From a virus: a stretch of DNA of 23,675 nucleotides. Below the pieces are notes generated by a model, which had not been told where the DNA came from, ran no database searches, and saw only the letters and a program-made list of their open reading frames with translations. The stretch covers positions 1-23,675 of the IMG/VR virus record IMGVR_UViG_3300036980_000141; one strand, given 5' to 3'. This document shows, piece after piece, positions 6,344-23,675 of this stretch. Within the stretch, counting starts at the first letter, position 1, and the number at the start of each line of letters is the position of its first letter. The position numbers were made by a program, and so were the translations under genes.

Positions 6344-9300
6344 TACGCGCTCCTCCTGTAGGTGCTAGTTGATGGAGTGGAGGGAGCGATGGAGCGGAGA
6401 GCCGAAGCCGCTCCGTAGGCACTAGAAGCAAGCTCGTCCGCCGACTGCGCTGCCTGTGTCCTGGCCGCAGTCTCCTCATACGCCGCGTTCGTCGCTCTCC
6501 TTCTGGCTTCCGCTTCCGCGTCGATCATTGCGACCAGCGCATCGAGCGAAGCCTGGAGGACGCCGGTCTGTGGCGGCACGACCATCGCCTCAAGTTCGAG
6601 CTGTCTCGTTTGCAATGTGACTGCGTACGATCCAGTCGCAGCTTGGAGCGCGAGCAGCGGGGCGGCCATCGCCGCCGTGATGAGGTCGGCGGGAGAGGTC
6701 GGAGCGCCGACCGGAGTCGTCTCCGCCGGAGGCGGCACAATCGGCGGCATGGTGGGCAGTTGGAGCAGCATCGCGGCGAGCGAGGCCGTCACCCCATCGA
6801 CTGCTATCTGGAGTGAGGCGAGGGGAATGACGACGGCGGTCAACTCGATGACCTTCTGCTGGAACGCGGCGATGAGAAGGGTGACGGCTGCGGCCATCTC
6901 CTGCATCGCCACCTGGGGCTGAGAGAGCGCAGCGACGAAGGCGTCCACCCCGATCTTGAGTCCCTCCGTCGGAACGGTAAGACCTTCGAGCGCCAGCTTC
7001 TTTTCCCTCAGCGAGTCCATGAGGGCCGCGAGCGTATCGCTCAGACCGAGGCCAATACCCGAGAGGTCAACGGGCTGAGGTTGGATCGCTGCGAACTTGA
7101 CCTGGAGTTCTGCAAGCGTCAGCGCGAGCACGGAGAGGGAGGCGACCGAAGCCTGCAACTGCACTCCCGCTTCGAGGAGAGCATCCTGGTACGCCTTCGC
7201 TGCTGCCTGGAGGTCGGCAGGAACGAGCGGGGTCGCCCCGAGCGCGGCTTCTCTCTCCTTCAAGGCGGCGAGGATTTCTTCCGGGGCCAGGGAGAGGGCG
7301 GAAAGTTCCTCCGCTTTTAGCTTGAGCAGATCGACCAGCGAGACCAGCGGCTCTCCGAGCGACTGCAGTCCTACCTGGGCCTGGAGCAGAGCGGCAGCGT
7401 AGGCCGCGAGTGCCGCCTGGAGGTCTGCCGTTGGGACTACGGGAAGCACGGGGGCTGGAGGCGTGAAGCTGGCGAGGGTGCTGGTGAATGTCTGAACCTG
7501 GACCCCGGCGTTCGTGATCGACGCTGCAATTGCTGTCGTCGCCGCCGTCACCGCAGTCGTGTCGAAGGTGGGGAAGGCGAGAACATTGGAGGGCAAGGTG
7601 GGGGCATTCTCCGGTCCCCTCTTCCCGCCCTTGTCCCCCGTCTCCTTGTCGAGCGCATCTCTGAACCTCCCGACCGCTCCCGTAGTGTCATCGAGTTCGT
7701 CCCCAAGGTCTTTCAAGCTCTTCTGGACTGCCTCCGTCTCGATGGTGACGCTCTGCAACGAGACTATCGTTCCGTCGATCGCAGCCTTGAGGAGATCCAT
7801 CTGCGCCTTGACCTCCTCCTGGAACGAGGCGAGGAGCGTGTCCGCAATCTGCGAGGCGAGTTTGAGTTGCGCCTCCGCCCACGAAGCCCAATCGAATCCC
7901 TCGAGGCCGGTGAGCATTCCCTGGAGACCAGTGAGGACATCCACGAGAAGCGCCTGCTGCGCCAAGACCTCATCCTGCATCCCCTTGAGAGCGGTCTCCG
8001 CTGCTGCCTGCGCCTCCTTGAGGAACTGCTCCGCCCATGCCTTCGTATCGAATCCACCGTATGAGCCTGACTCCCCGAGCGCCCACAATTGCTTCCCGTA
8101 CTCCAACATCTGCCGGGTGAGTTGCTCGACCTCCTCGGGGGTGCGCGCCTGCGCGAGTTGCTCCCTGAGCGAGACCATCTGCTGCGTGAGCCAGTACGCT
8201 TCCCATTGAGGACCCTTCTCCTTGGCCCTCGCTTCCTCGAACCCGGCGAAGGTCTCCTCGAATGACGCGGCCACAGACTTCTGCACGTCGGAGATTCGAC
8301 GGAGGTAGTTGAGGTTCGCCTCGTATTGGCTTGCCGCGAGTTGCCCGATCTGCTGCAGGCGCGACACCTGCTCGTCGTTCGCCAGCCCCTCGATCCCGTC
8401 GGCAAGTTCCTTGACGCTCCACAGAGTTCTCTGCGATGCTCTCCACCATTCCTGCTGCTCTGTCCCCGGCTCGCGTCCTTCGATCTTCGCCATCTGCCCT
8501 GAGAGGCCCATCTTCATATCCATGAGGAGCGATGTGAGGCTGAAGCCCGCCTGGTCTGCGCCACTCCCGAGTTGGTAGAGGGCCTGTCCGAACTGCTGAA
8601 TCTTGGCGACGAGTTCCCTGACGACCTCCGGGGTCTTGGCGTTCCTCAACTGCTCCATCAACTTCGTGATCTGCGTGGTGTAGAAAGCCGCCTCCGAGCC
8701 CTTGCCCTTGGCCTTCGCCGCGTCCTCCTCGAAGCCGAGGAAGATGTCGTCGAACGATCGCTTTATCTCCTTCTGCACATCCACAAGGTTCTTGAGATAC
8801 TCAAGGGAGCGGTTGTACTGCTCGGTCGCCAATGCCCCGATCTGCTCCGCACGGACGACCTGCTCCTCCGAGGTCATCTGGTCCATGCCCTCGCTGAGGT
8901 CTGCGATTCCCTTGAGGGTGTCAGTCATGGACTTGAGGAACGTATCCCGCACGGTGAGGGTGACGTCGGCCCGGAGAGTGTCGAGATCCTTTCCGAGTTC
9001 CTTCGTGAGTTCTTGCATATTGACGAGCGCCGAGACGTATCTCGCAAACGCAGCAAGAGCCTTGTCGAAGTCTCCTGTGACGAAGCTCCTCATCTGCTCT
9101 TCGATTCGACCGGCGGAAACCCCGACTGCTGTGAGCCCCGCTACGAGTGCCGGTTTGTAGAACTCGAACACCGCCTTGGGAACGGTGCTCTTGATGAAGG
9201 CGTCGATCGCGCTCTGGAGGTTCTTGCTCCTCTCGTTGAGAGCCAGGGTGATGTTCGGCATGTCTCCGATCGCCTGGCCGAGAAGATGCAGGGACTCGCG

Positions 9301-12300
9301 GAATGCGAAGCTGACGGTGCGGTATCTTGCCGTGATGGTCTCGGCGACTACCCGCTCCGCTTCCTTTCCAACACCTCCCGTGATCTCGGTGATGTATCCC
9401 CTGCCCCCCTTGAGTCCTCCGGTGGCGGTTTCCTTCCCTGGCCCAGCCGAACCGAAGTAAGCCATGAGCCCACCGACCACCGCTCCGACGATAGCCCCGA
9501 CCCAGTTCCAGCCTCCCATGCTCCCCGCTATAGCTCCGCCGACCATGCCGCCCCCGACGCCCCCACTGATAGCCCCTGCTGCCGTCGTGAGCCCTCGATT
9601 CTGCTTCGCCTGCCCGATCTGCCCGAGGATTCCCCCGAGGGTCGCGGCTGCCTGCATCCAGTTAAACGCAAGCTTCTTCGTTCCGTCGGCCAAGGTCTTC
9701 TCGACCATCCAGCCGGATTCTTGCAGCATCGTCTGGCGCTTCTTCGCGTCCGGCTCCATGAGGGCCGTCATCGCGTTTCCGAGAGCGCCCGCAGCGAAGC
9801 CCCCGAATGCGTCGGCGATGAGTTTGAATGCGTCGGTGATCTTGCCGCTCTTGAGTCCCTCTATGATCCCATCGGCGACGGACTTACTGAGGGTCTCCTT
9901 CGCCCATGCGGCGAGCTTGCTGACTTCAGGTTGGACTTGACTCCTATTCAAGACGATATCCCACGGGAGTGGCTGCGCTTTCGGAAGCGTCAACCCTTCA
10001 CGCATCTTGTCCCACAGTTGCTTCCGCTTGTCGTCGAGTTCCCATTGCATCCTCTGAGCAGCGATCTCACCCTCGCGCGCTCTGGTAAGCTCGACGATCT
10101 GCGCGGCCATCCTGTCGTACTCCTGGATCTGCGTCTCGGCTTCTTTCCGACCAAGTACGGCATTCTCGATCCTGCGCTCCTGCGCCTCCATCTCTAACTT
10201 GATCTCGTCCTGCTGACGCCTCGAGACATTCTCGATTGCCTTGGCGAGTGCGCGCTGCGCCTCGACAACTTTCTTTACAGCCTCAGGATCGCCGGATGTT
10301 TTCGCTACCTCCTTCGCTTGATCCGCGAGTTCCTTCATCTTCAGCAGAGCGGGGCCTAGTTCAACCTTCGGAGTCAGAGGGGATTCAATGATGTCCGACA
10401 GCCTCGCCATCTCCGCCTCGATACCCTCCATCGTCAATCGGAACGTGGCGACTGCCGCGTCTGCGACCGCCTGCGCGTCCGGCTTCGGGGGTCCGGCGAA
10501 GCCCCGCTCTTGAAACTTCTTGTACTCGTCGGAGACCTGTTGCTCGATCTGGAGGAACTTGTATGCGTCTTGCTGCGCGAGCTTCATCATCTCCGCGACG
10601 GTCTGCGGGACTCCCTCGATCCCCGCCTTGCGGATCTTCGTCACGATCGTCGTCATGCGAGTGACGTATTCCTGCATCGCGACTTCTGACGCTTTCAGTG
10701 CTGCCTTCTGCTGCGCGTCCGCACCAGCGACACCGAATAATCCCGCTAGCGGACTTCGAGCTCCTCCTGCTTTCCCGGCCTGTGCGTCCTGGTATTTCTG
10801 CGCTTCTGCTTGAAGTCGCTTGAATGCCTCGACGTTCTGTTGCGCGAGACTCGGGGCTCTGGCAAGGAGTTCGTTCCATGCCGCCTGCAATCCAGTCACC
10901 TTCAGTAGCGCAGTCGTGACCTCGTAGGAGAGGTAGCCGACGAGAAGCACTAGGCTGGCTTTCGCTGCGAGCGCTGCCGCTCCGACCCCGCTGAACCCAA
11001 CTCCCGATAGCACGGAGGCCGTATTCGCGGTCTTGATCGCGACAATCAACTGCGCGTAGAGGGGGATCAACAGGCCCACGCCCTTCACGAGCATGGAAAC
11101 GCCAATCGCGAGCGGGCCGAGTATCACAAGGAACGCGGCGAACTGTGCTATGAGTTTCTGCGTCGATGGGTCGAGCGAGCGGAACGCATTCACGACCTCC
11201 TTCACCGCATCCGCAACTCCACGCAGTTTGTCCGTGATAACCGGGAGCGTGACCTCTCCCAGGTCTTTCATGGCTTGCTTGATCTTGATGGTCTGCCGGT
11301 GGAACTCCAACAGTGGACCCTTCGATGCAATGTCCCACGCTTTGTTCATGTCTCCCTGCGTGCCGATCATGCGCCCAAAGATTCCCTCCACAGCTTGCGA
11401 TGACTTTCCTGCAAGAGCCATCAAGCCCGTGTACGCCCGGATGCTGCCGAACACTTGCATGATGGCATTGTCCTGGCCCTCAAATGACTTCACCACTTGC
11501 TGCAGGGCTGCAAGAAGGCCCTTGTTCTTGAGGGTAGCTTGGAGGTCAGAGAGACTCATCCCAACTTTTGAGAGAGCCTCCTCCGCTTGCCGTCCAGCTT
11601 TTCCTGCAAGTACCGCGAGAGCACCGCGCAGCGCAGTCACGGCCTCGGAGGAATCAAGACCGATCCTTGTCATGCTGGCGATGCTGGCTCCGATCTCGTC
11701 GAACGTGACTCCGATCTGCGAAGCCAGAGGGAGGACTCGGCCTAGCGAGCCTGCGAGTTCTTCCGGGGCCATCTTACCTTCTCGAACAGTAGCGACCAGG
11801 ATGTCCGTGGCGTGCTCTGCCGTCATGTTGGAGAGGGCATAGGCGTTCATGGCTGAGGTCACCGCATCCGCGACGATCTTCATGTCGCCCAGGCCAGCGG
11901 CGGCAGCCTTCGCGCTCATGTCGAGGACTGAGAGTGCTTTGTCTCCCCTGAGTCCTGCGGAGGTGATGAAGAACATTGCATCGGCGAGTTCGGTACCGCT
12001 CCTCGCCGTCTCCGAACTTAGACGCGTGATAGTTCCCCTGTAACTGTCAATCTCACTCGCTGCGACACCCACGAGTCCCTGGATTCTCCGCAGGGCGGCA
12101 TCGAACTCTCCGAACGCCAATCCAGATGCGGTCATCGCCGCGCCTATCGGGAGCCCCACCTTCATCGAGAAGGACTTCCCGAAGTCTCCGATGCCCTTCC
12201 CTGCCTTGGCGAACTTCTGCTCGATGGAGGTTGCGGCTTTTCCGGCTTCTCCTTCGATCCTCTTGAGGCCGGAGATGACTCCACTCTCGTCGAGCACGGC

Positions 12301-12330
12301 CTCGAACATGATGCTGACGTTTCCGGCCAT
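6343..12330 (-). CDS. Tail tape measure protein
   Basis: A 1995-residue protein that sets tail length and passes through the tube. The N-terminus (about residues 60-290) carries the TP901-type tape measure domain: DAALRRIQGLVGVAASEIDS, GTELADAMFFITSAGL, VREGKMAPEELAGSLGRVLP and SMTRIGLDSSEAVTALRGAL. Hydrophobic segments at about 390-430 and 460-477, and a Gly/Ala-rich stretch at about 910-965 (GGGMVGGAIAGSMGGWNW), could insert in the host membrane. There are long helical regions throughout. Residues about 1145-1260 and 1307-1425 are a clear duplication, and roughly 1610-1945 holds several weak repeats of about 60 residues. No peptidase or lysozyme motif was recognised. The ATG overlaps the chaperone stop. 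Confidence 0.95.
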   Translation of the reverse strand: MAGNVSIMFEAVLDESGVISGLKRIEGEAGKAATSIEQKFAKAGKGIGDFGKSFSMKVGLPIGAAMTASGLAFGEFDAALRRIQGLVGVAASEIDSYRGTITRLSSETARSGTELADAMFFITSAGLRGDKALSVLDMSAKAAAAGLGDMKIVADAVTSAMNAYALSNMTAEHATDILVATVREGKMAPEELAGSLGRVLPLASQIGVTFDEIGASIASMTRIGLDSSEAVTALRGALAVLAGKAGRQAEEALSKVGMSLSDLQATLKNKGLLAALQQVVKSFEGQDNAIMQVFGSIRAYTGLMALAGKSSQAVEGIFGRMIGTQGDMNKAWDIASKGPLLEFHRQTIKIKQAMKDLGEVTLPVITDKLRGVADAVKEVVNAFRSLDPSTQKLIAQFAAFLVILGPLAIGVSMLVKGVGLLIPLYAQLIVAIKTANTASVLSGVGFSGVGAAALAAKASLVLLVGYLSYEVTTALLKVTGLQAAWNELLARAPSLAQQNVEAFKRLQAEAQKYQDAQAGKAGGARSPLAGLFGVAGADAQQKAALKASEVAMQEYVTRMTTIVTKIRKAGIEGVPQTVAEMMKLAQQDAYKFLQIEQQVSDEYKKFQERGFAGPPKPDAQAVADAAVATFRLTMEGIEAEMARLSDIIESPLTPKVELGPALLKMKELADQAKEVAKTSGDPEAVKKVVEAQRALAKAIENVSRRQQDEIKLEMEAQERRIENAVLGRKEAETQIQEYDRMAAQIVELTRAREGEIAAQRMQWELDDKRKQLWDKMREGLTLPKAQPLPWDIVLNRSQVQPEVSKLAAWAKETLSKSVADGIIEGLKSGKITDAFKLIADAFGGFAAGALGNAMTALMEPDAKKRQTMLQESGWMVEKTLADGTKKLAFNWMQAAATLGGILGQIGQAKQNRGLTTAAGAISGGVGGGMVGGAIAGSMGGWNWVGAIVGAVVGGLMAYFGSAGPGKETATGGLKGGRGYITEITGGVGKEAERVVAETITARYRTVSFAFRESLHLLGQAIGDMPNITLALNERSKNLQSAIDAFIKSTVPKAVFEFYKPALVAGLTAVGVSAGRIEEQMRSFVTGDFDKALAAFARYVSALVNMQELTKELGKDLDTLRADVTLTVRDTFLKSMTDTLKGIADLSEGMDQMTSEEQVVRAEQIGALATEQYNRSLEYLKNLVDVQKEIKRSFDDIFLGFEEDAAKAKGKGSEAAFYTTQITKLMEQLRNAKTPEVVRELVAKIQQFGQALYQLGSGADQAGFSLTSLLMDMKMGLSGQMAKIEGREPGTEQQEWWRASQRTLWSVKELADGIEGLANDEQVSRLQQIGQLAASQYEANLNYLRRISDVQKSVAASFEETFAGFEEARAKEKGPQWEAYWLTQQMVSLREQLAQARTPEEVEQLTRQMLEYGKQLWALGESGSYGGFDTKAWAEQFLKEAQAAAETALKGMQDEVLAQQALLVDVLTGLQGMLTGLEGFDWASWAEAQLKLASQIADTLLASFQEEVKAQMDLLKAAIDGTIVSLQSVTIETEAVQKSLKDLGDELDDTTGAVGRFRDALDKETGDKGGKRGPENAPTLPSNVLAFPTFDTTAVTAATTAIAASITNAGVQVQTFTSTLASFTPPAPVLPVVPTADLQAALAAYAAALLQAQVGLQSLGEPLVSLVDLLKLKAEELSALSLAPEEILAALKEREAALGATPLVPADLQAAAKAYQDALLEAGVQLQASVASLSVLALTLAELQVKFAAIQPQPVDLSGIGLGLSDTLAALMDSLREKKLALEGLTVPTEGLKIGVDAFVAALSQPQVAMQEMAAAVTLLIAAFQQKVIELTAVVIPLASLQIAVDGVTASLAAMLLQLPTMPPIVPPPAETTPVGAPTSPADLITAAMAAPLLALQAATGSYAVTLQTRQLELEAMVVPPQTGVLQASLDALVAMIDAEAEARRRATNAAYEETAARTQAAQSADELASSAYGAASALRSIAPSTPSTSTYRRSA
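8056..8410 (-). repeat. Tape measure internal repeat, copy 2
   Basis: Second copy, about 118 residues from LADGIEGLANDEQ to LWALGESGSYGGF, about 163 codons downstream of copy 1. It has diverged to roughly half identity by eye. A shorter tandem pair follows it (AWAEQFLKEAQAAAETAL against SWAEAQLKLASQIADTLL). Confidence 0.8.
8550..8900 (-). repeat. Tape measure internal repeat, copy 1
   Basis: Encodes about 117 residues from LSEGMDQMTSEEQ to YQLGSGADQAGF. It aligns along its whole length with copy 2: EEQVVRAEQIGALATEQYNR against DEQVSRLQQIGQLAASQYEA, VQKEIKRSFDDIFLGFEE against VQKSVAASFEETFAGFEE, and AKTPEVVRELVAKIQQFGQA against ARTPEEVEQLTRQMLEYGKQ. Confidence 0.8.
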
Positions 12331-13114: not shown

Positions 13115-14086
13115 TCAGTACGTTGTCGAAAGATCGCTCAAGCACACGATCTCGAAGGCCGCTGCCTCCGAGTCGCTGAGGTAGTACCCCCGGAAGTCGC
13201 ACGCGACGCTGACGAGGCCGCGAGTGGTGATCGAGGGCGCTGCCGTCAGTCCGACCTTCGCCTCGGGGAACCAGAACTTCACCATCTTCGTCGGGGCTCC
13301 TGGCCGAGGGCACTCGAGCATGAGGTCTACGGTCGTGTCCCCGGTGACGTACCCCCGGAGGGTGTCCGCTGAGTCCCAGAGTCCGGTGATCGTGCCGCTG
13401 ACCTCGTAGGCTCCCGCAGCGAAGGATGCTGCGTAACGGTTGCCATCGAGAACCGCTGGCATCTCGACTGTCCTCGTGACAGTGAAGTCCACGTCCGTCA
13501 CCACAGCGCTTGCAGTTTGGTTGACCTTGAGGACCGCGTCCACGAGGTAGTGCCGAAGCTGCGTGTAAGAATCCGGCGAGGTGTCGTAGGCCGTGCCGGA
13601 GTTGAGCGTCTTGATCCCCGAACCCAGGAGGGTCCAGGTCGCCTTGAGAACCTCCGCCCTCTTGGTCGCCGTGACCTTCAGAGCCGAGAGGAACACGCCC
13701 TTGAATTGATCGTACTTCCCCTCTGTCGTGTCGCCGACCTCGACCCACAATGACGGTGGGGTCACGGTCCCGATCTTGAACTGATGCGTATACGGTGCCT
13801 GCGTTCCGGTGTTCGAGTAGCTGGTGAGGAAGTATTTCGCCATCCTCCCCAATGCGTCAGTCTCGACGGCCTGCACCAAGTCCCCGGTCGTGGTCCACAG
13901 ACCGCGAATCGGGGCGCTCGGATTGGGGTCGTCCTTCAGTTCGTCCGACGCGGCCATCTCCTCCGTCCAGCCGAACGTGCAACTGGCCTTCGGAATGGAG
14001 TAGCCGGTCGGGGTAGTCTGGCCGGAGTTGAAAGCATCCTCCGGGCCGACCACGACTCGCAGTGCTCCACCTGTCCTGTTTCCCAT
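13115..14086 (-). CDS. Major tail tube protein
   Basis: A 323-residue beta-rich protein with an AGGAGG site ahead of its ATG. It lies immediately before the tail assembly chaperone pair, the standard place of the tube protein in siphoviruses. Supporting features are the start MGNRTGGALRVVVGPEDAFN, PASCTFGW-like strands, LWTTTGDLVQAVETDALGRM (the helix region), YTHQFKIGTV, and a second half with repeating Thr/Ser/Val strands. The duplicated beta-sandwich look and length around 320 fit two tube-type folds or a tube fold plus an Ig-like surface domain. It should polymerise as rings around the tape measure protein. No enzymatic motif is present. Family assignment is by context and composition. 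Confidence 0.8.
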   Translation of the reverse strand: MGNRTGGALRVVVGPEDAFNSGQTTPTGYSIPKASCTFGWTEEMAASDELKDDPNPSAPIRGLWTTTGDLVQAVETDALGRMAKYFLTSYSNTGTQAPYTHQFKIGTVTPPSLWVEVGDTTEGKYDQFKGVFLSALKVTATKRAEVLKATWTLLGSGIKTLNSGTAYDTSPDSYTQLRHYLVDAVLKVNQTASAVVTDVDFTVTRTVEMPAVLDGNRYAASFAAGAYEVSGTITGLWDSADTLRGYVTGDTTVDLMLECPRPGAPTKMVKFWFPEAKVGLTAAPSITTRGLVSVACDFRGYYLSDSEAAAFEIVCLSDLSTTY

Positions 14087-14089
14087 CTC

Positions 14090-14326
14090 TTAGTCCTCCT
14101 CGTCCTTGTCTGGCAGCACTTGATGTTTCCTCCACCCGGCTGGCCTTGTGGGTGCATACTCGCGGGCCTCGACCGGCTCCACCTTGTAGCCTTTCACCCG
14201 CAGTGATTCCGCGTACTCGGGCGACAGATCGACCTCGCGCGGTTCGCCAGCGAGGAACGTTCCCGCTCCCCAATGCGACCTCGCCATGTAACCCGAGTTC
14301 GTTGGCAGTGTTATGCGATAGAGCAT
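14090..14326 (-). CDS. Small protein of unknown function
   Basis: A 78-residue protein whose ATG lies 16 bases inside the end of the glycosyltransferase-methyltransferase gene, with a GGAGGAGGCCGA ribosome site. It contains ARSHWGAGTFLAGEPREVDL, then SPEYAESLRVKGYKVEPVEA, and a charged tail ending PDKDEED. The middle resembles short phage proteins whose pattern is a 'G-x-P-x-x-[IVL]' turn, a short helix, and a final strand; the gene at 17288-17593 has a similar arrangement. No catalytic motif, signal or membrane segment is seen. Function unknown. Confidence 0.72.
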   Translation of the reverse strand: MLYRITLPTNSGYMARSHWGAGTFLAGEPREVDLSPEYAESLRVKGYKVEPVEAREYAPTRPAGWRKHQVLPDKDEED

Positions 14327-15651
14327 TCGGCCTCCTCCTTCGGCTTGCGCCAGACGGCCATCTCGTGAATCGCCGAGACGTCCAGTTTCAGTGCGTCCAG
14401 GTCAGCCCTAACCTTGGGCCAGTTGTAGTCGTGGAAGATCACGCAACCCCCCGGCTTGACCTTGGCTTCCGCGATGTCGAACACGCGGAGCGTCTCGCCT
14501 GCGGCGTGGTCCCCGTCTATGAACATCAGGTCTACCGCGCCGTCTTTCAGTTCCGTGAGAGCCGCCTCGAACGTCGCTCGAATCGGCACGACCGTACCAC
14601 CGAGGACTCCGATCTTCGAGAGGTTCTCAAGGAACTCCGGGTAGACCCCGTCGTCGTCGAGTTGCGCGTCGTGGTGCTCCATGCCCAACTCATCGGGGGA
14701 GCCGAGGAAGTGGTCTACGGCATAGACTCGGATTCCTCTGTCAGCCTGCGCTGCACCCATTCCTAACAGAGCGCTGGAGCGACCCTTCCATGAGCCGAGT
14801 TCCACGACTATCCCGCCGGTCGGGACGAACCGCATCTCTTCGAGGATGACGTCGGCCTGACTGTCGGTGAGCCAGCCCTCAATCTCCTTCCACTCGTCGG
14901 TGACGGAGATGGCCGTGCGCTCGGTCTTGAGGAACCACCTGCCGATGTTCCCGGTCCACCCCTTCGTGCCGTAGTGGGTGAGGTCTATCGAGGGGTCGAG
15001 CCATATCCTGCCCCCCGCTCGTCTCCAGAGGCGGGAGAACGAGTAGTCCTCGCCCCACATCTTGCCCTCCTCGACGAGTTCGTTGAAGAGCGCGTAGAAG
15101 TGCTGGATGATCTCCGGCTCTTTCGTTGGGGGGTTGTCGCACTTCAGAGCAGGGTAGGCCTCGAACATCCTCTCGAAAACCCTGCGGTGCAGCATCGCGA
15201 AGCCGACGTGCGAGGCGTCGAGTTCCACGCAGCCGCAGTGCGCGCAGACGACGAGCTTGTTCCCGGCCTCTTTCGGGAAGGCAACGGTGTACGTCTCGTT
15301 GTCGCTCTTCCTTCTGTACGCCCCGGAGACGAAGTCCTTGTCCGCCTTGAGGAACTTGAGGACGTCCCTCGCGTCCCATCTGAGATCATCGTCGATGCAC
15401 ATCATGTGCGAGCACTTCGACGCCATGAACCACGCCACCAGGGTGTTCCTCGCCCGCATCACCAGCGAGTCCTGCGGAGCGATTCGGATCTCCCCGTATA
15501 TCTTGTTCGCCGAGAACAGGCTCATCGTCTCCATTAGCGAGATGACCGTCTCGTGCCTGATCGCTCCCGAGCCGCAGGGGATGGCTATGAAGATCCCCGT
15601 GAACGGGTGCTCCCCTTGCTCCAGCGGCACCGGCTTCGTCCCTTCTGTCAT
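14311..15651 (-). CDS. Glycosyltransferase-methyltransferase fusion
   Basis: A 446-residue two-domain enzyme. Residues 17-240 look like a GT-A-fold glycosyltransferase: FTGIFIAIPCGSGAIRHETV, ARNTLVAWF, then CIDDDLRW with the DxD-type metal-binding triplet at 87-89, a CxxCGC cluster at 136-141, and GGRIWLDPSIDLTHYG near 213-228. Residues 275-440 are a class I SAM-dependent methyltransferase of the Methyltransf_24 type: VVELGSWKGRSSALLG (motif I, 282-297), YAVDHFLG (acidic loop), DLMFIDGDHAAGET (374-387) and KPGGCVIFHDYNW (399-411). It probably transfers and methylates a sugar, or modifies a shared target; substrate unknown. GGAGGAGAGA precedes the ATG. It sits between tail terminator and tube genes, so a virion protein is a plausible target. 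Its glycosyltransferase half is paralogous to the gene at 846-1583. Confidence 0.88.
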   Translation of the reverse strand: MTEGTKPVPLEQGEHPFTGIFIAIPCGSGAIRHETVISLMETMSLFSANKIYGEIRIAPQDSLVMRARNTLVAWFMASKCSHMMCIDDDLRWDARDVLKFLKADKDFVSGAYRRKSDNETYTVAFPKEAGNKLVVCAHCGCVELDASHVGFAMLHRRVFERMFEAYPALKCDNPPTKEPEIIQHFYALFNELVEEGKMWGEDYSFSRLWRRAGGRIWLDPSIDLTHYGTKGWTGNIGRWFLKTERTAISVTDEWKEIEGWLTDSQADVILEEMRFVPTGGIVVELGSWKGRSSALLGMGAAQADRGIRVYAVDHFLGSPDELGMEHHDAQLDDDGVYPEFLENLSKIGVLGGTVVPIRATFEAALTELKDGAVDLMFIDGDHAAGETLRVFDIAEAKVKPGGCVIFHDYNWPKVRADLDALKLDVSAIHEMAVWRKPKEEAECSIA

Positions 15652-15664
15652 TCTCTCCTCCCGC

Positions 15665-16117
15665 CTATCCCAAGTTCCTGTAGTGTTTGAACCGAGCCGA
15701 GAACACGACTGCTCCGGTCGCGGTCTGGCCCACAGGTGAAACTCCCTCGAACATCACCACGTCACTCTTGCTCTCCGGCCTCCATCCGTTGCTCGGGCAG
15801 AACGCGACTCGTATCGCCTCGATCGCGTCCCATGCTCTCTCCGCCCCGTCGTCATGCGCCGCCGCCCCCATCGAGGAAACGACCACGTCCCACGCCCATG
15901 TCTCCGGCTGGAATACCGCATCCCCGAGCAGTTCCGAATCTGGGGTCGTCATGCTTGCCAGGGCGACATTGATTCCAAGGACGCACGACTCCTGCATGAA
16001 CCTGTCTGGACTCATCCCTCTGTAGACCGTCGTGTCAATCGGGAGAGTGCCACCGTCAACCGCGAGGGCTTCGATCTTCTCGGCTAGGGCGTCGCGGAGG
16101 GTGGCGTAGGCACTCAC
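15665..16117 (-). CDS. Probable tail terminator / minor tail protein
   Basis: A 150-residue protein that starts with GTG, overlapping the previous stop as GTGA, with GGGGGCGAA upstream. It has an N-terminal helix (YATLRDALAEKIEAL), a middle with 'QESCVLGINVAL' and 'AVFQPETWAWDVVVSS', and a C-terminal strand ending ATGAVVFSARFKHYRNLG. Position after the gp10-like gene and before the tail tube, together with its size and alternating alpha/beta pattern, fits the lambda gpU/SPP1 gp17-type tail terminator that stops tube growth and joins tail to head. No motif proves it, so the functional name is inference from synteny. Confidence 0.65.
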   Translation of the reverse strand: MSAYATLRDALAEKIEALAVDGGTLPIDTTVYRGMSPDRFMQESCVLGINVALASMTTPDSELLGDAVFQPETWAWDVVVSSMGAAAHDDGAERAWDAIEAIRVAFCPSNGWRPESKSDVVMFEGVSPVGQTATGAVVFSARFKHYRNLG

Positions 16118-16680
16118 TTCGCCCCCATGCTGCTCTTGAGATTCGCCCCGATGTACGCATTGACTTCAGAGATCGCCTCGGGAGTGATGCCTATGAACGG
16201 GCGAGCCGGGATTCTGACATTCCTATTCCTCCCGGCCTTGTCGGTCCCGTACTGATGCGCCTTGCCGTAGTCGGCAACGGCTCCCGTGACACCCGCCCAC
16301 ACTCTCGCTCTCGTCTTGCTCTCGATCTTGTACCCTGCGGTGATGCCCTTCGAGAGGGCGCCGGATGCGTAGAGCAGAGAATGGGTGATGGCTTTCTTTC
16401 CCTTCGCCTTCTTCCCCTTGCGCTTCGCTCTGCGCTTTGCGAGCCCCGCCCTCTCGTATCCTTCCTTGGTCGAGTCCGCCCAAGGCTTCCACTTGATTCT
16501 GTACCCCGTCATCGGCTCGCCCTTGTTTGCGACGTCGAAGGCGCGCATCGAGGACTCGATGACCTTGAGAGCAAGGAACGCTCCGCACTTCCCCACGCCC
16601 TCGGCTGCTTTTGTCGCGAGCGTTTGGAGCAGGTTCTCGCTCTTCTTGGCGAGCCGAAACCTCATCATAGTGCCGCCCAT
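16114..16680 (-). CDS. Virion morphogenesis protein (HK97 gp10/Mu gpG-like)
   Basis: A neck or tail-completion protein of up to 188 residues. It shows the features of the phage virion morphogenesis family: WKPWADSTKEGYERAG, LLYASGALSKGI around residues 102-113, DYGKAHQYGTD near 138-147, and the end signature RNVRIPARPFIGIT near 154-166. A strongly basic stretch, RRAKRKGKKAKGKK at about 83-96, is unusual and may touch DNA or portal surfaces. Two starts are possible: the ATG at 16680 used here, or the ATG at 16668, which makes an ATGA overlap with the connector stop like most junctions in this operon. Neither has a strong ribosome site, so the first four residues are uncertain. Confidence 0.85.
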   Translation of the reverse strand: MGGTMMRFRLAKKSENLLQTLATKAAEGVGKCGAFLALKVIESSMRAFDVANKGEPMTGYRIKWKPWADSTKEGYERAGLAKRRAKRKGKKAKGKKAITHSLLYASGALSKGITAGYKIESKTRARVWAGVTGAVADYGKAHQYGTDKAGRNRNVRIPARPFIGITPEAISEVNAYIGANLKSSMGAK

Positions 16681-17291
16681 CCCGCTTGAAAATGCGCGAT
16701 CTTGGCAAACACCTCTTGCCTCGTGCTCTTGACATCGTCCACCGCTGCCCCGTCGGGGTTGATCCTCCCCGTCAGCGGGTGCCAGTAGTCGAGCGTGACG
16801 AGTTCCTTGATCGCCTTGCGGATCTCCGCAGGGATGTCAGTCGGGAGAGGCCCGTAGCCGCTGACGTACTTGATGACCAGGCTTCTCTGCGGACGGAAGT
16901 CCGCGCCCCACACTACGTTCCCCTGCCAGACCTCTCCGATGTTGAGCCAGATGCGCGAGGCGTCCCCGACCTCGATGGTGTAGTGGGAAGAGGGAACGAC
17001 GAACTCGTTGTTGCCGGTGTCGTATGTCTTGACGCCGTCGCTGGCGATCGAGATGAGCGGAGGCCTGGGAAGTTCGATGCAGTCCTCGATATGAACGGCG
17101 TCGATCGCGAACTCCCAGGTCTGCGTGTTGAGTGAGCGCAGGAGCACGTTCTCTATCTCGCAGGTCGCCGCCGAGATGAGGCCGAGGATCTTGCCCTCAT
17201 CCTTCCCGGCCTGCTGAGGCATCCACTCCTGCAGAGCGTCAAGGTTGATGGGTTCGACGGTCGGGGCGGTAATTCTGCTGAGGGTTCTCAT
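16665..17291 (-). CDS. Head-tail connector protein (gp6/phiE125 gp8-like)
   Basis: A 208-residue adaptor expected to bind under the portal and prepare the neck for tail joining. The pattern fits the gp6/gp8 connector family: an opening 'EPINLDALQEWMPQQ', then GLISAATCEIENVLLRSLNTQTW (a helix followed by the characteristic TQTWE segment), a beta-rich centre with LPRPPLISI, and a C-terminal helical pair DIPAEIRKAIKELVTLDYWH. Length and position, after the capsid group and before the gp10-like gene, agree. The start is an ATG in an ATGA overlap with the previous gene. Confidence 0.85.
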   Translation of the reverse strand: MRTLSRITAPTVEPINLDALQEWMPQQAGKDEGKILGLISAATCEIENVLLRSLNTQTWEFAIDAVHIEDCIELPRPPLISIASDGVKTYDTGNNEFVVPSSHYTIEVGDASRIWLNIGEVWQGNVVWGADFRPQRSLVIKYVSGYGPLPTDIPAEIRKAIKELVTLDYWHPLTGRINPDGAAVDDVKSTRQEVFAKIAHFQAGWAAL

Positions 17292-17684: not shown

Positions 17685-18134
17685 CTACGTGATCGTGCCG
17701 CTGGTCAGCGTCACCCCGGAGTCCGGCTTGTGGGCCGCATAGTCCATGACGACGAAGGCCCCGATGACTCCCGCGCTGATGGTCGTCCCGGTGTAGACGG
17801 CCTTGACCCCGACGTACCTCTTGCCGCCGACGTAGCCGACGGTCTGAATGCAGATGTCCTCGGTGGTGGCATCCACCTTCGTGAACCCCCCGAGGATGTC
17901 CGCCGCCGCGACCAGGCTGTAGTTGCTCGCCGTGCCCGGCGTGACGGAGGCCTCGTACAGCGTGGGGGTGAGGTAGTTGCTGCCGTCCACGCCCGTGAGG
18001 TCGCCGATGATGACTCCCACGACCGCGCCCTCGAACCCCTGCGTGTCAACATAGCCGAGCCAGGTGTCCGTGTGCGCGAGATCGGTCGGAGCCGCCAGGA
18101 GCTTGACCTTGACGTTGTTGTACAGATCCCTCAT
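17685..18134 (-). CDS. Probable capsid-associated (decoration-type) structural protein
   Basis: A 149-residue, beta-rich protein beginning MRDLYNNVKV directly after the capsid gene, with a strong GAGGAGGACGAG ribosome site. The sequence is rich in Gly, Thr, Val and Ala, with alternating hydrophobic stretches (GFEGAVVGVIIGDLTGVDG, ICIQTVGYVGGKRYVGVKAV). It has no signal peptide and no catalytic-looking motif. Small proteins with a MRDLYNN-type start and a 'DTQGFEGA' strand are often found next to HK97-type capsid genes in phages, and position suggests a capsid decoration or stabilising role. That role is inferred from position and composition only. It could also be another structural component. 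Confidence 0.75.
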   Translation of the reverse strand: MRDLYNNVKVKLLAAPTDLAHTDTWLGYVDTQGFEGAVVGVIIGDLTGVDGSNYLTPTLYEASVTPGTASNYSLVAAADILGGFTKVDATTEDICIQTVGYVGGKRYVGVKAVYTGTTISAGVIGAFVVMDYAAHKPDSGVTLTSGTIT

Positions 18135-18154: not shown

Positions 18155-19306
18155 CTAAGAGGTCGCGATCTTGAGCTTGCGGATCGCCTCAGCCTGGATG
18201 ACCAGCCCGCCGACGCGCTTTCTGAACATGAACTCCACGACGCCCGTGGTCTTGCTGCTGTAGGGGTCGCGCAGTACGCTGATCTGCACCCTGTCCGCGA
18301 TGATGTACGCCCTGCGGAAGTCTCCGTAAGCTACGGGGTAGGTGTTGGTCGTGACGTCGGGCATGTCCGTCGCCTCGACGTAGGGCTGGCCGAGAATCCT
18401 CGGGGGGTTGCTGCCGGTGTAGTCCGGCTGCCAGACGTAGCCTGCGCCCGAGGTGATTTCCAGACCGCGAATGAGGCCGAGGGTCTTGCGGTTCATGACC
18501 CACATCCCGTTCCGGGCGTAGTCGGCTTTGATCGCGTGCTGCAGGTTGATGAGACCGGCCGCCTTGAGGACCGACGCATCCGTGCCGGGGGTGTAGCTGA
18601 CCGAGGTGTTGACCATGAACCCTTCCGGCTGCCCGACTCCCGTGCCGTTGACGAACGCCGTGCCCTCTAAGATCGCCAGCCTGAGTCCGGCCTTGTCAGC
18701 CAGGAATGCTTCCAAATTGAATGCCGAGTCCTCGAGGAGTTGATTGGTGATCTTCGGGTAGGCATACATCTCGTGCGCCGTGATGACGTGCTTCCCGAAG
18801 GTCTGCCCCGTTGTCTCGGTGCGCGTCCCGGCCTCTGCCGTCCACCCGCCCGAGAAGTCCCCCGTGTCGCTCGGCCACTCCAGGGTCGAGGTCGTGATCG
18901 GTTGCACCATCGCGATCTGCCGGATGGGGGAGAACTCTTGCACCCTGGCGATGATGCTGTTCATCACTTGCTTGGGCACGAGGTAGCCACCCGCTGTGTC
19001 GTCTGATGCGGACAGCGCCTTCTGCTCGTCCGGCGAGAACCGCCCGTCCCCTTGCCTGCAGTACTTCGCGAACGCCTTGGTCTCAGCGCCCGCCTGCTCT
19101 TCCGCGTTGACCGGAGCGGACGCGGGAGCCTTCCACTTGGCCTCCAGCTCGTCCATCCGCGCGTTCATGCGGTCGATCGCGGCCTTCGTCTCGGGCAGAG
19201 TCACACCGATGGACTTGACCTCGTCGGCCATCTTGTCCCGGTACTCCTCGAAGCCCTTCGCGAGACGAAGGAACTCGTCTTTGACTGCCTTCAGTTCCTC
19301 GCTCAT
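18155..19306 (-). CDS. Major capsid protein, HK97 family
   Basis: Main shell protein, 383 residues. Residues 1-60 are a charged helical coiled-coil region (the delta or scaffold-like domain), followed by an Ala/Pro linker. The mature part probably begins near residues 98-110, KALSASDDTAGGYLVP, a hallmark block of this family and the likely region of protease cleavage. Further motifs are SPIRQIAMVQPITTSTLEWP, GGWTAEAGTRTETTGQTFGK, LLEDSAFNLEAFL and NGTGVGQPEGFM, then IIADRVQISVLRDPYS near the end. The ATG overlaps the protease stop as ATGA and has the strong site AAGGAGGAAAGGACC before it, fitting high expression. The exact cleavage residue cannot be read from sequence alone. Confidence 0.96.
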   Translation of the reverse strand: MSEELKAVKDEFLRLAKGFEEYRDKMADEVKSIGVTLPETKAAIDRMNARMDELEAKWKAPASAPVNAEEQAGAETKAFAKYCRQGDGRFSPDEQKALSASDDTAGGYLVPKQVMNSIIARVQEFSPIRQIAMVQPITTSTLEWPSDTGDFSGGWTAEAGTRTETTGQTFGKHVITAHEMYAYPKITNQLLEDSAFNLEAFLADKAGLRLAILEGTAFVNGTGVGQPEGFMVNTSVSYTPGTDASVLKAAGLINLQHAIKADYARNGMWVMNRKTLGLIRGLEITSGAGYVWQPDYTGSNPPRILGQPYVEATDMPDVTTNTYPVAYGDFRRAYIIADRVQISVLRDPYSSKTTGVVEFMFRKRVGGLVIQAEAIRKLKIATS

Positions 19307-20196
19307 GGTCCTTTCCTCCTTAAGTTGTCGGCGAGTTCGCGGACTATCGCGAGCAACTCCTTGGCATCCTCATCCTCCGAGGGGAGTTCTCCTGGGTCGG
19401 GGGTAGGAGTGTCCGTGCCGGGTTCTTGCGAGTCTCCTTCGGCAGCGTTCGGGCTGTCAGACTCGGCGAGAAGTGGCGTGAGTGCTTCGATGGCATCCTT
19501 GAGCTTCGCCCGTAGCTCCGCGCTGAGGGCGCGGTCCTCCGTCTGCTTGACGGTATCTGGGTAGCCTGAGGTAGTTGAATCCCAATGCGTTGTGGTGGTC
19601 TGCGGACCGTAGCCCGTGCTCGCCGCGTTGTTCGTTGCGATGATCGTGGGCTTAAGATACTCGTTCGCCTTCTCCGTCACGGCCAGGAGCGCGTCACTGA
19701 GAGCTTCGTCCTCGTCGTCTGGGTGCTTCTTCTTGACCGCGATGATCTCCGCTGACTCGTTCGCGGGCCACAGAACGAGCGACCCCTCGAACAGGCGTAG
19801 CTCCTTGAGCCTGCGAATCTTCCCCTCGAACGAGTGCTGGATCACGTCGTAGCCGATTGACATGGCGTTGACGCGCCCCTTCCTCATGTGCTCTAGGATG
19901 ATCTGCGACTTCGGGTCCTTCATCTCCAGTTCGCCCCGAATGAAAAGCCCGTGCTCATCCTCGACGGCATCGTCCGCGCTTATCCCGCCGATCAACTCCT
20001 GGTGCTGCCAGAGCAGCGGGATCTGCTTGCCCTTCTGCCGCCACCTGTCTAGCGTCCGCGAGAATGCCCCCCTCTCCACCACGTCCCCCTGCTGGTCGGT
20101 GTTGCCGAACGTCGAGAGGTAGCCGGTGAAGGTTCCGGCCTCTGTCTGCAATTCCTTAACGTCCATGCGGAAGTCCTTGTCCTCGCGCTTGCCCAT
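19303..20196 (-). CDS. Prohead protease, HK97 family (peptidase U35)
   Basis: Serine protease that matures the prohead by removing the capsid scaffold-like N-terminus. From the chosen ATG at 20196 the protein has 297 residues: FTGYLSTFGNTDQQGDVVERGAF near residues 22-44 is the family opening, QIPLLWQHQ holds the likely catalytic His65, and NAMSIGYDV the likely catalytic Ser113, followed by LWPANESAEI. The last 100 residues are Thr/Pro/acidic-rich (DTPTPDPGELPSEDEDA), a probable disordered tail of the kind lost during maturation. The frame stays open 84 codons further upstream, but that stretch is Arg-rich, overlaps the preceding gene and has no family similarity. The start at 20196 has GGAGGGC ahead of it and TGATG coupling. 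It lies directly before the capsid gene as in HK97. Confidence 0.94.
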   Translation of the reverse strand: MGKREDKDFRMDVKELQTEAGTFTGYLSTFGNTDQQGDVVERGAFSRTLDRWRQKGKQIPLLWQHQELIGGISADDAVEDEHGLFIRGELEMKDPKSQIILEHMRKGRVNAMSIGYDVIQHSFEGKIRRLKELRLFEGSLVLWPANESAEIIAVKKKHPDDEDEALSDALLAVTEKANEYLKPTIIATNNAASTGYGPQTTTTHWDSTTSGYPDTVKQTEDRALSAELRAKLKDAIEALTPLLAESDSPNAAEGDSQEPGTDTPTPDPGELPSEDEDAKELLAIVRELADNLRRKGP

Positions 20197-20426
20197 CACA
20201 GCCCTCCTGGGTTTTCCTTTGCTCGATACCACTGATCCTCGCCAACCGGCTCGAAGACGACTCCACTGTCGCCCGGCTCGGAGACCCAGTGCCCGTTCTC
20301 GCTGCTCGTGATCGACTCGGGGATTCCGCTCGGGAACGCAGCGCACGCCATCCATGCCTCTTCGTTCGTGCGCCCCTTCTCCAGGTGCTTGCACCACATG
20401 CAATGGGGAGCCGGGCCGTAGGTCAT
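20196..20426 (-). CDS. Small phage protein with Cys-x2-Cys motif
   Basis: A 76-residue protein starting with an ATG that overlaps the stop of the head morphogenesis gene as ATGA. Its own stop overlaps the prohead protease ATG as TGATG. It carries APHCMWCKH, a third Cys in ACAAFPSGIPESI, and an acidic, aromatic C-terminus (HWVSEPGD, GVVFEP). Short proteins with this CxxC...C-x-FP-x-GIP arrangement are, to my knowledge, recurrent between portal or minor head genes and capsid genes in siphoviruses, but I know of no assigned function. The two or three cysteines could bind a metal. Function unknown. Confidence 0.8.
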   Translation of the reverse strand: MTYGPAPHCMWCKHLEKGRTNEEAWMACAAFPSGIPESITSSENGHWVSEPGDSGVVFEPVGEDQWYRAKENPGGL

Positions 20427-22111
20427 GTGAAGTACCTCTGCGCTTCATTCATCGCCTCGCAGAACTCACGCATGAAGCCCTTCCACTGTTGCGGGTCTGG
20501 CTTGCGCGACCACGCCTGGAATGCTTCGGCGAACATCTCTTGTTGATTCTTTCCGGCGTAGATGCTGAGTTCACGCTTCACGACAGCTTTACTTGTCTTG
20601 AGGATCTCGGTGAACTTGTCTTGGGTTGATTGGGGAACCTTAGCCCATGATCCACCATGGAAGAACGCGAGATTCCTCTGCTTGTCAATCGCATGGCCCG
20701 CTTCGTGCACTATGACGTCGGCCCAATCCCCATCGGTCTTTGGGTGGAATCCCGCTATCATATCGTCGAAAAGTTGGAGCTTTGTTCCAGCAGCATCCTT
20801 CGCCCAGAAGTAATTGATCCGCATCTCTTGAACTCCGAAGTCTGCATATACCTTTCGATTCAGCATGGAGACTCTAAGGCTTCGGATTCCAGTACCTCCC
20901 CTGGTGAGAGCGCTCGCGTGTGTGAACCCCTGCGCGGTTTTCTTGAGTATGATCGGGTCGATGAGCATTGTATCGACCCCGGCATCGGCTGCTAATCGCA
21001 CGTTGTAGTAGTCCTTCAAGAACACCTCAAGATCCTCGTACGTCGAAATGCTGTTGATCGTTTGAGTGACAGAGCGCGCGGCTGGCGGAGCCCCGAGAGA
21101 AGGAATCGTTGGCTTGAGACGGCTCGGCGGGATCGGCTGCTGACGTGGCTGCGGTCGCGCTGGTGCGATTGCACTCGGCTTGAGCTTCGGAGTGACGTAG
21201 ATGACGGCGCACCTGCAATGCGGGTGTGCGGGAGGATTCGGAACCCCGTTAGCGCCGACCGGGAACATCCCCATCAGCGGAACTCGGGTACCCTTGAGTC
21301 CCGCGCAGATGGGGCAGGTGACCTCGTCGCCCGACGTGAACCACTCCTTCTCCAGTGGCATCGCGAGTCGGTTCGACGCCGCCTTCATCGTCTCAAGCTG
21401 CGCGCTGTTGTGCGCCCAGGACATCTCCGTCCTCGCGATGCGGATCGCTCTCGCTCTGATAAGCGTCCCCTTGTATCTGTCCGTCGCTTTCGCGAGGCGG
21501 TCGCCCGTCCATCCTTTGCCACGGAGACGCTCGACGAGCTTGCCGAACGATCCGGCTTCCGCATTCGTCAGGCCTATCGTCTGCCGAAGGCGCTTGGCGA
21601 TCTCCACCGTGGGCCACTTCTCTCTCGCGCCTTGGCTGAGGATCGAGTATACCGCTTGCTTCTGCTGTCTCGTGAGGTTCACGATGAGCGCCTTATTCCT
21701 GGTCTTGTAGACGGACTCAATCGTGCGCTTCGCGGGCTCGGAATCGAAGATGACTCCCTTGCGATTCGCGAGTCTCTCGACCCCCTCTGCCGTCTGCGCG
21801 ACGACCGAGTCTGCCATCGCCAACTCGATCCCCTCTAGCTCGGCAGCGAAGACCTCGAACGCCTTGACGTATTCATCCTCTAGAGTCCTCGTCGGGCTTC
21901 CCTGCTCGACGCTGTGCGTGATCGCTTCGTCAGAGAGGCGCGCGGAATCAACCGCCGAGAGGAACGCCTTCGCTGCCTTGCGTTCTGGCGATGCGATGAT
22001 AGACTTGAGACGCTCTGAGGGATCACCCTCGTAGAGGACGTCTTCGTGCTCCTCGACTTGCTTGATCGAGAAGATGCGCGCTCTCGCGGCGACCTGCGCC
22101 AGTTGGAGCAT
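20423..22111 (-). CDS. Head morphogenesis protein (Mu F/SPP1 gp7 type) with C-terminal HExxH metallopeptidase-like domain
   Basis: About 562 residues from the ATG at 22111, preceded by GAGGAGG and overlapping the portal stop. The first roughly 310 residues are a minor head protein of the Mu F/SPP1 gp7 family: helical N-terminus, then RIARTEMSWAHNSAQLETM, a CPIC pair near residue 266, and PPAHPHCRC near residue 298, the classic Cys/His end of this domain. Members sit next to the portal and may enter the cell with the DNA. After a Pro-rich linker comes an extra domain of about 220 residues containing HEAGHAID (His469, Glu470, His473) and, 50 residues later, QQEMFAEAFQAW (Glu525/Glu529). This fits a gluzincin peptidase of the type seen in anthrax-lethal-factor-like and polymorphic toxin peptidases. 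The fold assignment is inference; the motif is seen directly. Confidence 0.88.
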   Translation of the reverse strand: MLQLAQVAARARIFSIKQVEEHEDVLYEGDPSERLKSIIASPERKAAKAFLSAVDSARLSDEAITHSVEQGSPTRTLEDEYVKAFEVFAAELEGIELAMADSVVAQTAEGVERLANRKGVIFDSEPAKRTIESVYKTRNKALIVNLTRQQKQAVYSILSQGAREKWPTVEIAKRLRQTIGLTNAEAGSFGKLVERLRGKGWTGDRLAKATDRYKGTLIRARAIRIARTEMSWAHNSAQLETMKAASNRLAMPLEKEWFTSGDEVTCPICAGLKGTRVPLMGMFPVGANGVPNPPAHPHCRCAVIYVTPKLKPSAIAPARPQPRQQPIPPSRLKPTIPSLGAPPAARSVTQTINSISTYEDLEVFLKDYYNVRLAADAGVDTMLIDPIILKKTAQGFTHASALTRGGTGIRSLRVSMLNRKVYADFGVQEMRINYFWAKDAAGTKLQLFDDMIAGFHPKTDGDWADVIVHEAGHAIDKQRNLAFFHGGSWAKVPQSTQDKFTEILKTSKAVVKRELSIYAGKNQQEMFAEAFQAWSRKPDPQQWKGFMREFCEAMNEAQRYFT

Positions 22112-23364: not shown

Positions 23365-23675
23365 CAACCTACCACGATGAATATCTCGCTTGTTGGGAGC
23401 CAGTCGGAAGCGAACGCCATGACGACAGCATCGCCCCGGTCAGGCGAGCGTCCGAGGCGGGATCTAATCTCATCCTTCGACTCCACTTTGACCGCCCCTA
23501 CACTTGTAACATCCCAGGTCGGCGTCGTCAAGTCCGCAGTCAAGGCATCGTCGGGGGGTAGTGACACTCCGCACATATTCTCGGGGTTGAGAAGCTCTCG
23601 GAGCACCCACCACGCTCTCGCTCGCAGGTTGAGGTAGTGCCTCGATCCGTGCTCGCCCTCATTCTGCTTCGACGT
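23364..23675 (-). CDS. terL: Terminase large subunit, C-terminal fragment
   Basis: Partial gene: the reading frame is open to the right window edge, so only the last 103 residues are visible. They match the end of the nuclease domain of large terminases: an aromatic patch RARAWWVLRELL, then LPPDDALTADLTTPTW, and the diagnostic ending VESKDEIRSRLGRSPDRGDA followed by VVMAF. In this family the Asp in SPDR-GDA is one of the metal-binding acidic residues of the RNase H-like headful/cos-cutting nuclease. The protein pumps DNA into the prohead and cuts the concatemer. The stop codon overlaps the portal ATG as TGATG, the usual terminase-portal order. An internal GTG at 23606 is not a real start, because the frame continues upstream with terminase-like sequence. 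The ATPase domain would lie beyond the window. Confidence 0.93.
   Translation of the reverse strand, partial: TSKQNEGEHGSRHYLNLRARAWWVLRELLNPENMCGVSLPPDDALTADLTTPTWDVTSVGAVKVESKDEIRSRLGRSPDRGDAVVMAFASDWLPTSEIFIVVG

Follow-up and report, generated by a model that had tools for sequence, protein, structure and literature searches.

The window, that is, the whole stretch of 23,675 bases that was analysed, is an IMG/VR virus record in which the minus strand carries nearly all genes, and these minus-strand genes form a single head-tail operon. It comprises the portal (22111-23367), a head morphogenesis protein (20423-22114, minus strand, with PHROG matches over residues 31-311), a protease (19303-20448), the major capsid protein (18155-19306, minus, phrog_10), a small protein after the capsid gene (17685-18134, minus, phrog_5707), a head-tail adaptor (16665-17291, minus, phrog_442), a neck or tail completion protein (16114-16680, minus, phrog_26) and the tail terminator (15665-16117, minus), which is assigned from a weak Pfam match (E 0.06) and its position, and whose equivalents in two related contigs, L114 and L115, match the phrog_347 tail terminator. 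There follow a gene for a 446-aa protein that joins a GT-A glycosyltransferase (GT) to a Methyltransf_24 methyltransferase (MT) (14311-15651, minus), a 78-aa ORF (14090-14326, minus), the tail tube (13115-14086, minus; Pfam PF18906, Phage_tube_2, E 1e-21), two small ORFs placed where tail-assembly chaperones usually lie, the tape measure (6343-12330) and the tail-tip genes. In addition, a stand-alone GT-A paralogue of 257 aa (846-1619, minus), which retains the DxD, ED and H motifs, adjoins a 141-aa phrog_644 protein (416-841, minus). The head morphogenesis protein carries approximately 250 extra C-terminal residues with an HExxH-like stretch, VIVHEAGHAIDKQ, and may thus be a MuF-type head protein extended by a metallopeptidase-like domain.

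The fusion gene is an open frame with an ATG start and a ribosome-binding-like GGGAGGAG upstream, and the plus strand at the same positions is interrupted by stops; the single frame of 446 residues described by the sequence-only reading is therefore present, on the minus strand, and its neighbours are the tail terminator and tail tube genes, as had been claimed. The gene starts 13 nt past the terminator gene and shares its last 16 nt with the 78-aa ORF, its GC content (0.615) lies inside the range of its neighbours (0.586-0.656), and so does its third-position GC (0.85 vs 0.71-0.93). This tight spacing, the overlap and the neighbour-like composition indicate that the fusion gene is a resident of the operon. 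A search of the window proteins against NCBIfam gave no match, and searches for related loci with the single window fusion protein, or with the window tail tube, returned nothing. No prophage or host was found for the window, since the fusion alignment (A2), used as a profile against GTDB genomes, detected no fused gene.

Both of the domains that had been proposed gave positive profile searches. In the GT-A half (residues 1-248; 14908-15651, minus), residues 20-230 align to positions 15-232 of the 240 of phrog_1574 (E 1e-23), and there is also a weak match to a PHROG named glycosyltransferase (E 1e-4). The motifs quoted previously, IDDDL (residues 86-90), VVELGSWKGRSS, DLMFIDGDHAAGE and GGCVIFHDYNW, all occur in the fusion. 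The DDD triplet that had been singled out is present at residues 87-89 (15385-15393, minus), although across relatives only D87 and D89 are invariant, and it is this DxD rather than the triplet that is conserved. The ED motif E201-D202 (15046-15051, minus), with D202 invariant, is the expected holder of the GT-A catalytic base, and H226 (14974-14976, minus), invariant among the fusions, is the expected third metal ligand of the site. The nearest fold is that of STIV A197 (Z 18.4, 2.2 A over 163 residues), which is also the sole significant solved match of the sequence profile (E 9e-6); the next fold matches are the glycosyltransferase domain of human LH3, Mnn9, Mimivirus R699 and COLGALT1, with SpsA matching too, so that protein glycosyltransferases are present among the fold matches that come after A197.

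The other half (residues 249-446; 14311-14907, minus) is predicted to be a SAM-dependent domain of the sugar-O-methyltransferase type. It matches Methyltransf_24 (PF13578) with 72.3 bits against a gathering threshold of 26.3 (E 7e-20) and the TylF Pfam family with 32.3 bits against a cut-off of 23, both over residues 283-409. Its nearest fold is MeT1 (6g7d, Z 23.0), followed by a Desulfuromonas O-methyltransferase, SpnH, MycF and NovP, in agreement with the sequence matches. SAM motif I is ELGSWKG (residues 284-290; 14782-14802, minus); DGDH (residues 379-382; 14506-14517, minus) aligns with DGGH of MeT1 and DGD of MycF and SpnH, and HDY (residues 407-409; 14425-14433, minus) with HD of MeT1 and DDY of MycF and SpnH. 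The 1-OH of mannosides is the position methylated by MeT1 (PMC9883506). Given 33 window and IMG/VR sequences, AlphaFold2 modelled both halves of the whole fusion confidently (mean pLDDT 89.7, pTM 0.67), in line with the structural check proposed for this protein, and the GT half alone gave a mean pLDDT of 91.4 and a pTM of 0.88. Across 13 fusions, R68, D87, D89, D202 and H226 are invariant in the GT half and E284, G286, W288, G290, D313, H314, D374, D379, H382, H407 and D408 in the MT half.

The paralogue at 846-1619 is 35% identical to the GT domain of the fusion (E 6e-38), and a search for related loci with it yielded L003 alone, where a different GT lies in a non-structural region. Among the relatives seen, a CAHCGC motif (C-x2-C-x-C; residues 136-141 of the fusion, 15229-15246, minus) is common only to the window fusion, this paralogue and the fusions of L090 and L091, which suggests that the paralogue arose within the lineage of these three fusions. 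The motif may be a small metal site.

The GT and MT pair is not restricted to the window. A scan of IMG/VR, whose query consisted of the MT halves of the window and L055 proteins (both taken from fusions, with no GT sequence), retrieved at least 41 loci. In 19 of the 41 loci listed, the MT is joined to a phrog_1574 GT-A domain, including L119, where the GT is divided over two overlapping frames, and in L104 the two are adjoining genes. Moreover, in L101, L113 and L123 the MT is joined to Pfam family-2 GTs; L118, a homologue of L113, is also among the 41, and the N-terminal region of L102 is GT-like by eye only. The list includes three near-duplicate pairs (L105/L111, L107/L108 and L116/L117). 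This fusion to more than one GT family indirectly supports a sugar hydroxyl as the probable substrate of the MT half. L101 and L113 are very long multi-domain phage proteins with Methyltransf_24, Methyltransf_11 and a family-2 GT domain, which L118 resembles by eye. The combination had been called uncommon, and that description does not hold, as the same pair lies in many further contigs beside capsid or connector genes; it is common in environmental phages rather than rare. In a set of 50,697 deposited phage records, the MT clade has no more than remote matches, and would for this reason escape work based on isolates.

The usual domain order is GT-MT, and MT-GT is found in L114, L115 and L128. 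The two domain orders were considered as proof of many independent fusions, and this argument had to be toned down, because the MT-GT members form one clade beside L055 in both the MT and the GT trees and a single swap suffices to explain the reversed order. In these trees, in which several branches have low support and that of L104 is long, the GT-linked MTs are fully apart (100/100) from the MTs of the early-region neighbours L006, L069 and L089, and the window groups in a clade with L090 and L091 (99/95). A further candidate for the same fusion, MW202691 with L080, was set aside, since the SAM-methyltransferase-like domain that forms its C-terminal half is a different one and is weakly detected, with Pfam scores below the cut-off and a profile-profile probability of 13%. 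These proteins (L004:7902-9179, which is MW202691, and L080:972-2249) join GT-A to an unclassified domain in the same P22-type slot, and the two activities may have been brought together here in a separate event.

The surroundings of these genes are dominated by structural genes. In 15 of 21 GT/MT records, a set that includes near-duplicates and L080 with its different methyltransferase, the same strand carries a capsid gene (PF05065 or P22-type) no more than about 3 kb upstream. The six records lacking that capsid match are L115, where the pair lies between terminator and tube; L092, at 0.7 kb from an adaptor; L091 and L104, where genes of other capsid families lie about 4 kb away or nearer; L090, at 1.8 kb from the large terminase; and L120, which adjoins a 1,948-aa fibre-like ORF. 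Thus, with the exception of the last, every GT-A-linked record has genes for the capsid, connector, tail or packaging at a distance of about 4 kb or less. Among MT-clade members that lack this GT, capsid genes were found above the cut-off in 6 of 18 records. The proposed search of other phages for this gene at a position between the neck and the tube was positive in L114 and L115, in which the pair lies exactly between terminator and tube with the domain order reversed. The capsids near GT-A-linked genes belong to HK97-type, P22-type and other lineages, and the capsids of the fusion phages are only 21-39% identical or show no detectable similarity between lineages, with the exception of two close pairs (55-56%), whereas most MT halves are 48-58% identical to that of L055. 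Since the MT halves are more alike than the capsids, the cassette appears to be mobile and to land repeatedly in structural blocks. Both folds, the conserved catalytic sites, the coupling of the two domains and their placement in structural blocks are thus established computationally, as predictions from sequences and models.

Two types of small protein recur beside these genes. A protein of approximately 68 aa with Thr-rich stretches lies between the coat and GT-methyltransferase genes in P22-type contigs (L127:7096-7302, L117:7036-7251, L121:6826-7029 and L080:766-972), and a PHROG search with the L127 protein gave no match. Small phrog_644 proteins adjoin GT genes at 416-841 of the window and at L105:6918-7340, the latter beside a fusion, and by eye phrog_644-like proteins also lie near the GT in L054 and L057; it is possible that they are acceptors, or merely common tail-region genes.

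The stand-alone relatives of the GT are more widely distributed. PF05065 detected a capsid gene in 2 of the 40 records listed with a stand-alone GT, many of which are T4-like or podovirus-like, with capsids undetectable by that family. By eye, stand-alone GTs lie in replication regions in L012, L023, L026 and L028, and beside virion genes in L030, L043, L048, L054, L057 and L063. The same family occurs in the replication region of Cr30, and in T4-like contigs the GT lies between gp32-like and gp47-like genes; the replication-region relatives neighbour exonuclease, RusA and helicase genes, and in L006, L069 and L089 stand-alone Methyltransf_24 genes adjoin them. In cellular genomes, a flagellar gene is in reach in 12 of the 80 genome-collection GT loci listed, with flgD 10-59 bp away in three, flagellin at about 250 bp in two and flgD at about 4 kb in seven, all Acetobacteraceae; the flagellar genes were identified by inspection and with one-sequence searches. 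This proximity gives a modest but suggestive hint of glycosylation of another self-assembling surface protein. In the alphaproteobacterial genomes L149 and L210 (about 7970-11400), homologues of flagellin, FlbT and FlaF are immediately preceded by a tandem pair of phrog_1574-type GT genes, and the GT family may include flagellin glycosyltransferases.

The most probable function of the fusion, with a probability of roughly two in three, is to put an O-methylated sugar on a virion protein, and this agrees with the target previously suggested: the arrangement is conserved across unrelated structural blocks, and the best matches of the two halves are STIV A197 and sugar O-methyltransferases. According to this proposal, the late operon would co-produce the fusion with the head and tail proteins, and the GT-A domain, with its metal held by DxD and H226 and the ED motif providing the general base, would transfer the sugar moiety of a host nucleotide sugar to side chains of a virion protein. 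The C-terminal metal-dependent domain would then methylate a hydroxyl of that sugar with SAM and cap the glycan, and the role of the paralogue at 846-1619 would be to glycosylate another virion protein, or else to initiate or lengthen this glycan. What we infer from the folds, sites and placement is that the protein is active as an enzyme, which sugar chemistry it performs and in which order and, most of all, that its acceptor is a virion protein. The putative acceptor would be the tail tube, the capsid or a small accessory protein, and no single one stands out because the neighbouring protein differs between phages. In the window, the candidates are the tail tube (20% Ser+Thr), the capsid, the small phrog_5707 protein, the product of the 78-aa ORF and the phrog_644 protein (25% Ser+Thr), and no statistical test singles one out. 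The chemistry, which had been regarded as unknown, is in part narrowed by the placement of the MT among sugar O-methyltransferases.

Location does not prove substrate, and the occurrence of the same GT family and of stand-alone Methyltransf_24 genes in replication regions counts against a virion target. Phage-encoded modification of surface glycans is well established, and the late enzyme might instead alter and methylate a glycan of the host surface, blocking superinfection or aiding release, with the operon supplying late expression only. Polysaccharides, too, are substrates of sugar O-methyltransferases, MeT1 being an example (PMC9883506). However, in phages that are unrelated, such genes would not be expected to persist directly behind the coat gene or in the gap that separates terminator from tube, the GT of known structure that comes nearest is viral and is proposed to act on a coat protein, and a GtrA-type membrane partner was found in none of the 18 GT/MT records, which may be fragments, with a control that was positive in 7 genomes; modification of the host surface is thus an unlikely function. 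It seems equally improbable that the cassette is a tolerated, moron-like passenger in insertion-tolerant gaps of the operon, with a function unrelated to the virion. The varying slot (after the coat, after the adaptor, or between terminator and tube), the similarity of the MT sequences relative to the surrounding capsid proteins, which implies that the cassette moves, and the presence of the GT family in early regions would all suit a passenger, but a passenger would be expected in other gaps as well, and in 20 of the 21 linked records the pair adjoins genes recognised as coding for virion or packaging proteins, while the remaining one has it beside a fibre-like ORF. Moreover, the window gene overlaps its downstream neighbour and shares the composition of its neighbours.

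The replication-region GT relatives, beside exonuclease, RusA and helicase genes, and the name DNA methyltransferase borne by one PHROG that matches the MT half could point to hypermodification of phage DNA by a base glycosyltransferase and a methyltransferase. The thymidylate-synthase family is the family of the hydroxymethyl-pyrimidine synthases, and none of the 18 GT/MT records, which may be incomplete, contains a protein of it, although the control was positive in 9 genomes; a Tet_JBP search was uninformative, its control being silent. As the MT half also resembles sugar O-methyltransferases, a role in DNA modification is considerably less probable than either a surface or a passenger function. 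Finally, the gene is encoded among neck and tail genes, as a virion or assembly component that kept the enzyme folds without catalysis would be, but both sets of catalytic residues are invariant across 13 divergent fusions and a structural part could hardly tolerate the swapped domain order, so that such a role is very improbable.

Modification of a virion protein therefore remains the preferred function, and the recurrence of the pair among capsid and tail genes of very different uncultured phages suggests, at the level of sequence, a widespread decoration of virus particles. Whether a mobile cassette that glycosylates and then methylates, in either domain order, is a standard accessory of structural modules in diverse uncultured tailed phages, with O-methylated glycans on capsid or tail proteins as a common, hitherto unnoticed trait of environmental virions, is an evenly balanced question. 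If the enzyme acts in the proposed way, many environmental phages would be coated with methyl-capped glycans through the spread of a mobile gene cassette, and hydrolases, lectins or host sensing may be kept from the sugar by its methylation. The enzyme is short and its candidate acceptors are encoded next door.

To our knowledge, glycosylation of phage-particle proteins has been shown in few cultured phages only, mostly of mycobacteria. In mycobacteriophages, GTs and an O-methyltransferase have been linked to modification of the capsid and the tail tube (Freeman 2023, as reported in PMC11600133, PMC11256854 and PMC13313380), and in cluster O mycobacteriophages the GT genes lie downstream of an O-methyltransferase gene (PMC11600133). 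This system resembles the window in its phage-encoded GTs, the nearby O-methyltransferase and the reported modification of capsid and tail tube, and it differs in having separate genes and other hosts, whereas the window encodes one protein inside the structural block. A tblastn search with the GT-MT protein returned no mycobacteriophage among its matches, and the Che8 GT is a weak structural match to the fusion (Foldseek E 3e-10, TM 0.26-0.30, rank 20 in a viral structure search). Among cultured phages, Thermobifida phage P1312 has neighbouring O-methyltransferase and GT genes located just behind its tail genes. The open literature yielded no GT-methyltransferase fusion inside phage structural operons, which is weak evidence of novelty.

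A parallel in architecture is PBCV-1 A064R, a single protein with two GT domains and a methyltransferase domain that acts on the glycan of the major capsid protein (PMC9614988). Compared by fold class, it shares with the window the union of GT and methyltransferase domains in one viral protein, which in A064R completes and O-methylates a capsid glycan, and differs in its two GT domains, its eukaryotic virus and an N-glycan of another kind. STIV A197 (PDB 2c0n), the best solved match of the GT half by both profile and fold, is an essential GT proposed to decorate the capsid of its own virus, whose coat protein B345 is glycosylated (PMC10551542); unlike the window protein, it is a single domain from an archaeal virus, without a methyltransferase, and its acceptor is likewise putative. 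MeT1 and the TylF, MycF, SpnH and NovP group are the best sequence and fold matches of the MT half, with aligned acidic and histidine motifs, but their substrates are free oligomannosides or natural-product sugars and the solved proteins are not GT fusions. The stand-alone phrog_1574 GTs of Cr30, Pelagibacter and T4-like phages belong to the same GT-A family, but are single domains and lie in many cases in replication regions, not structural blocks. Glycosylation of virions by phage enzymes is thus already known, and the part that appears new is the fused GT and MT in a structural operon.
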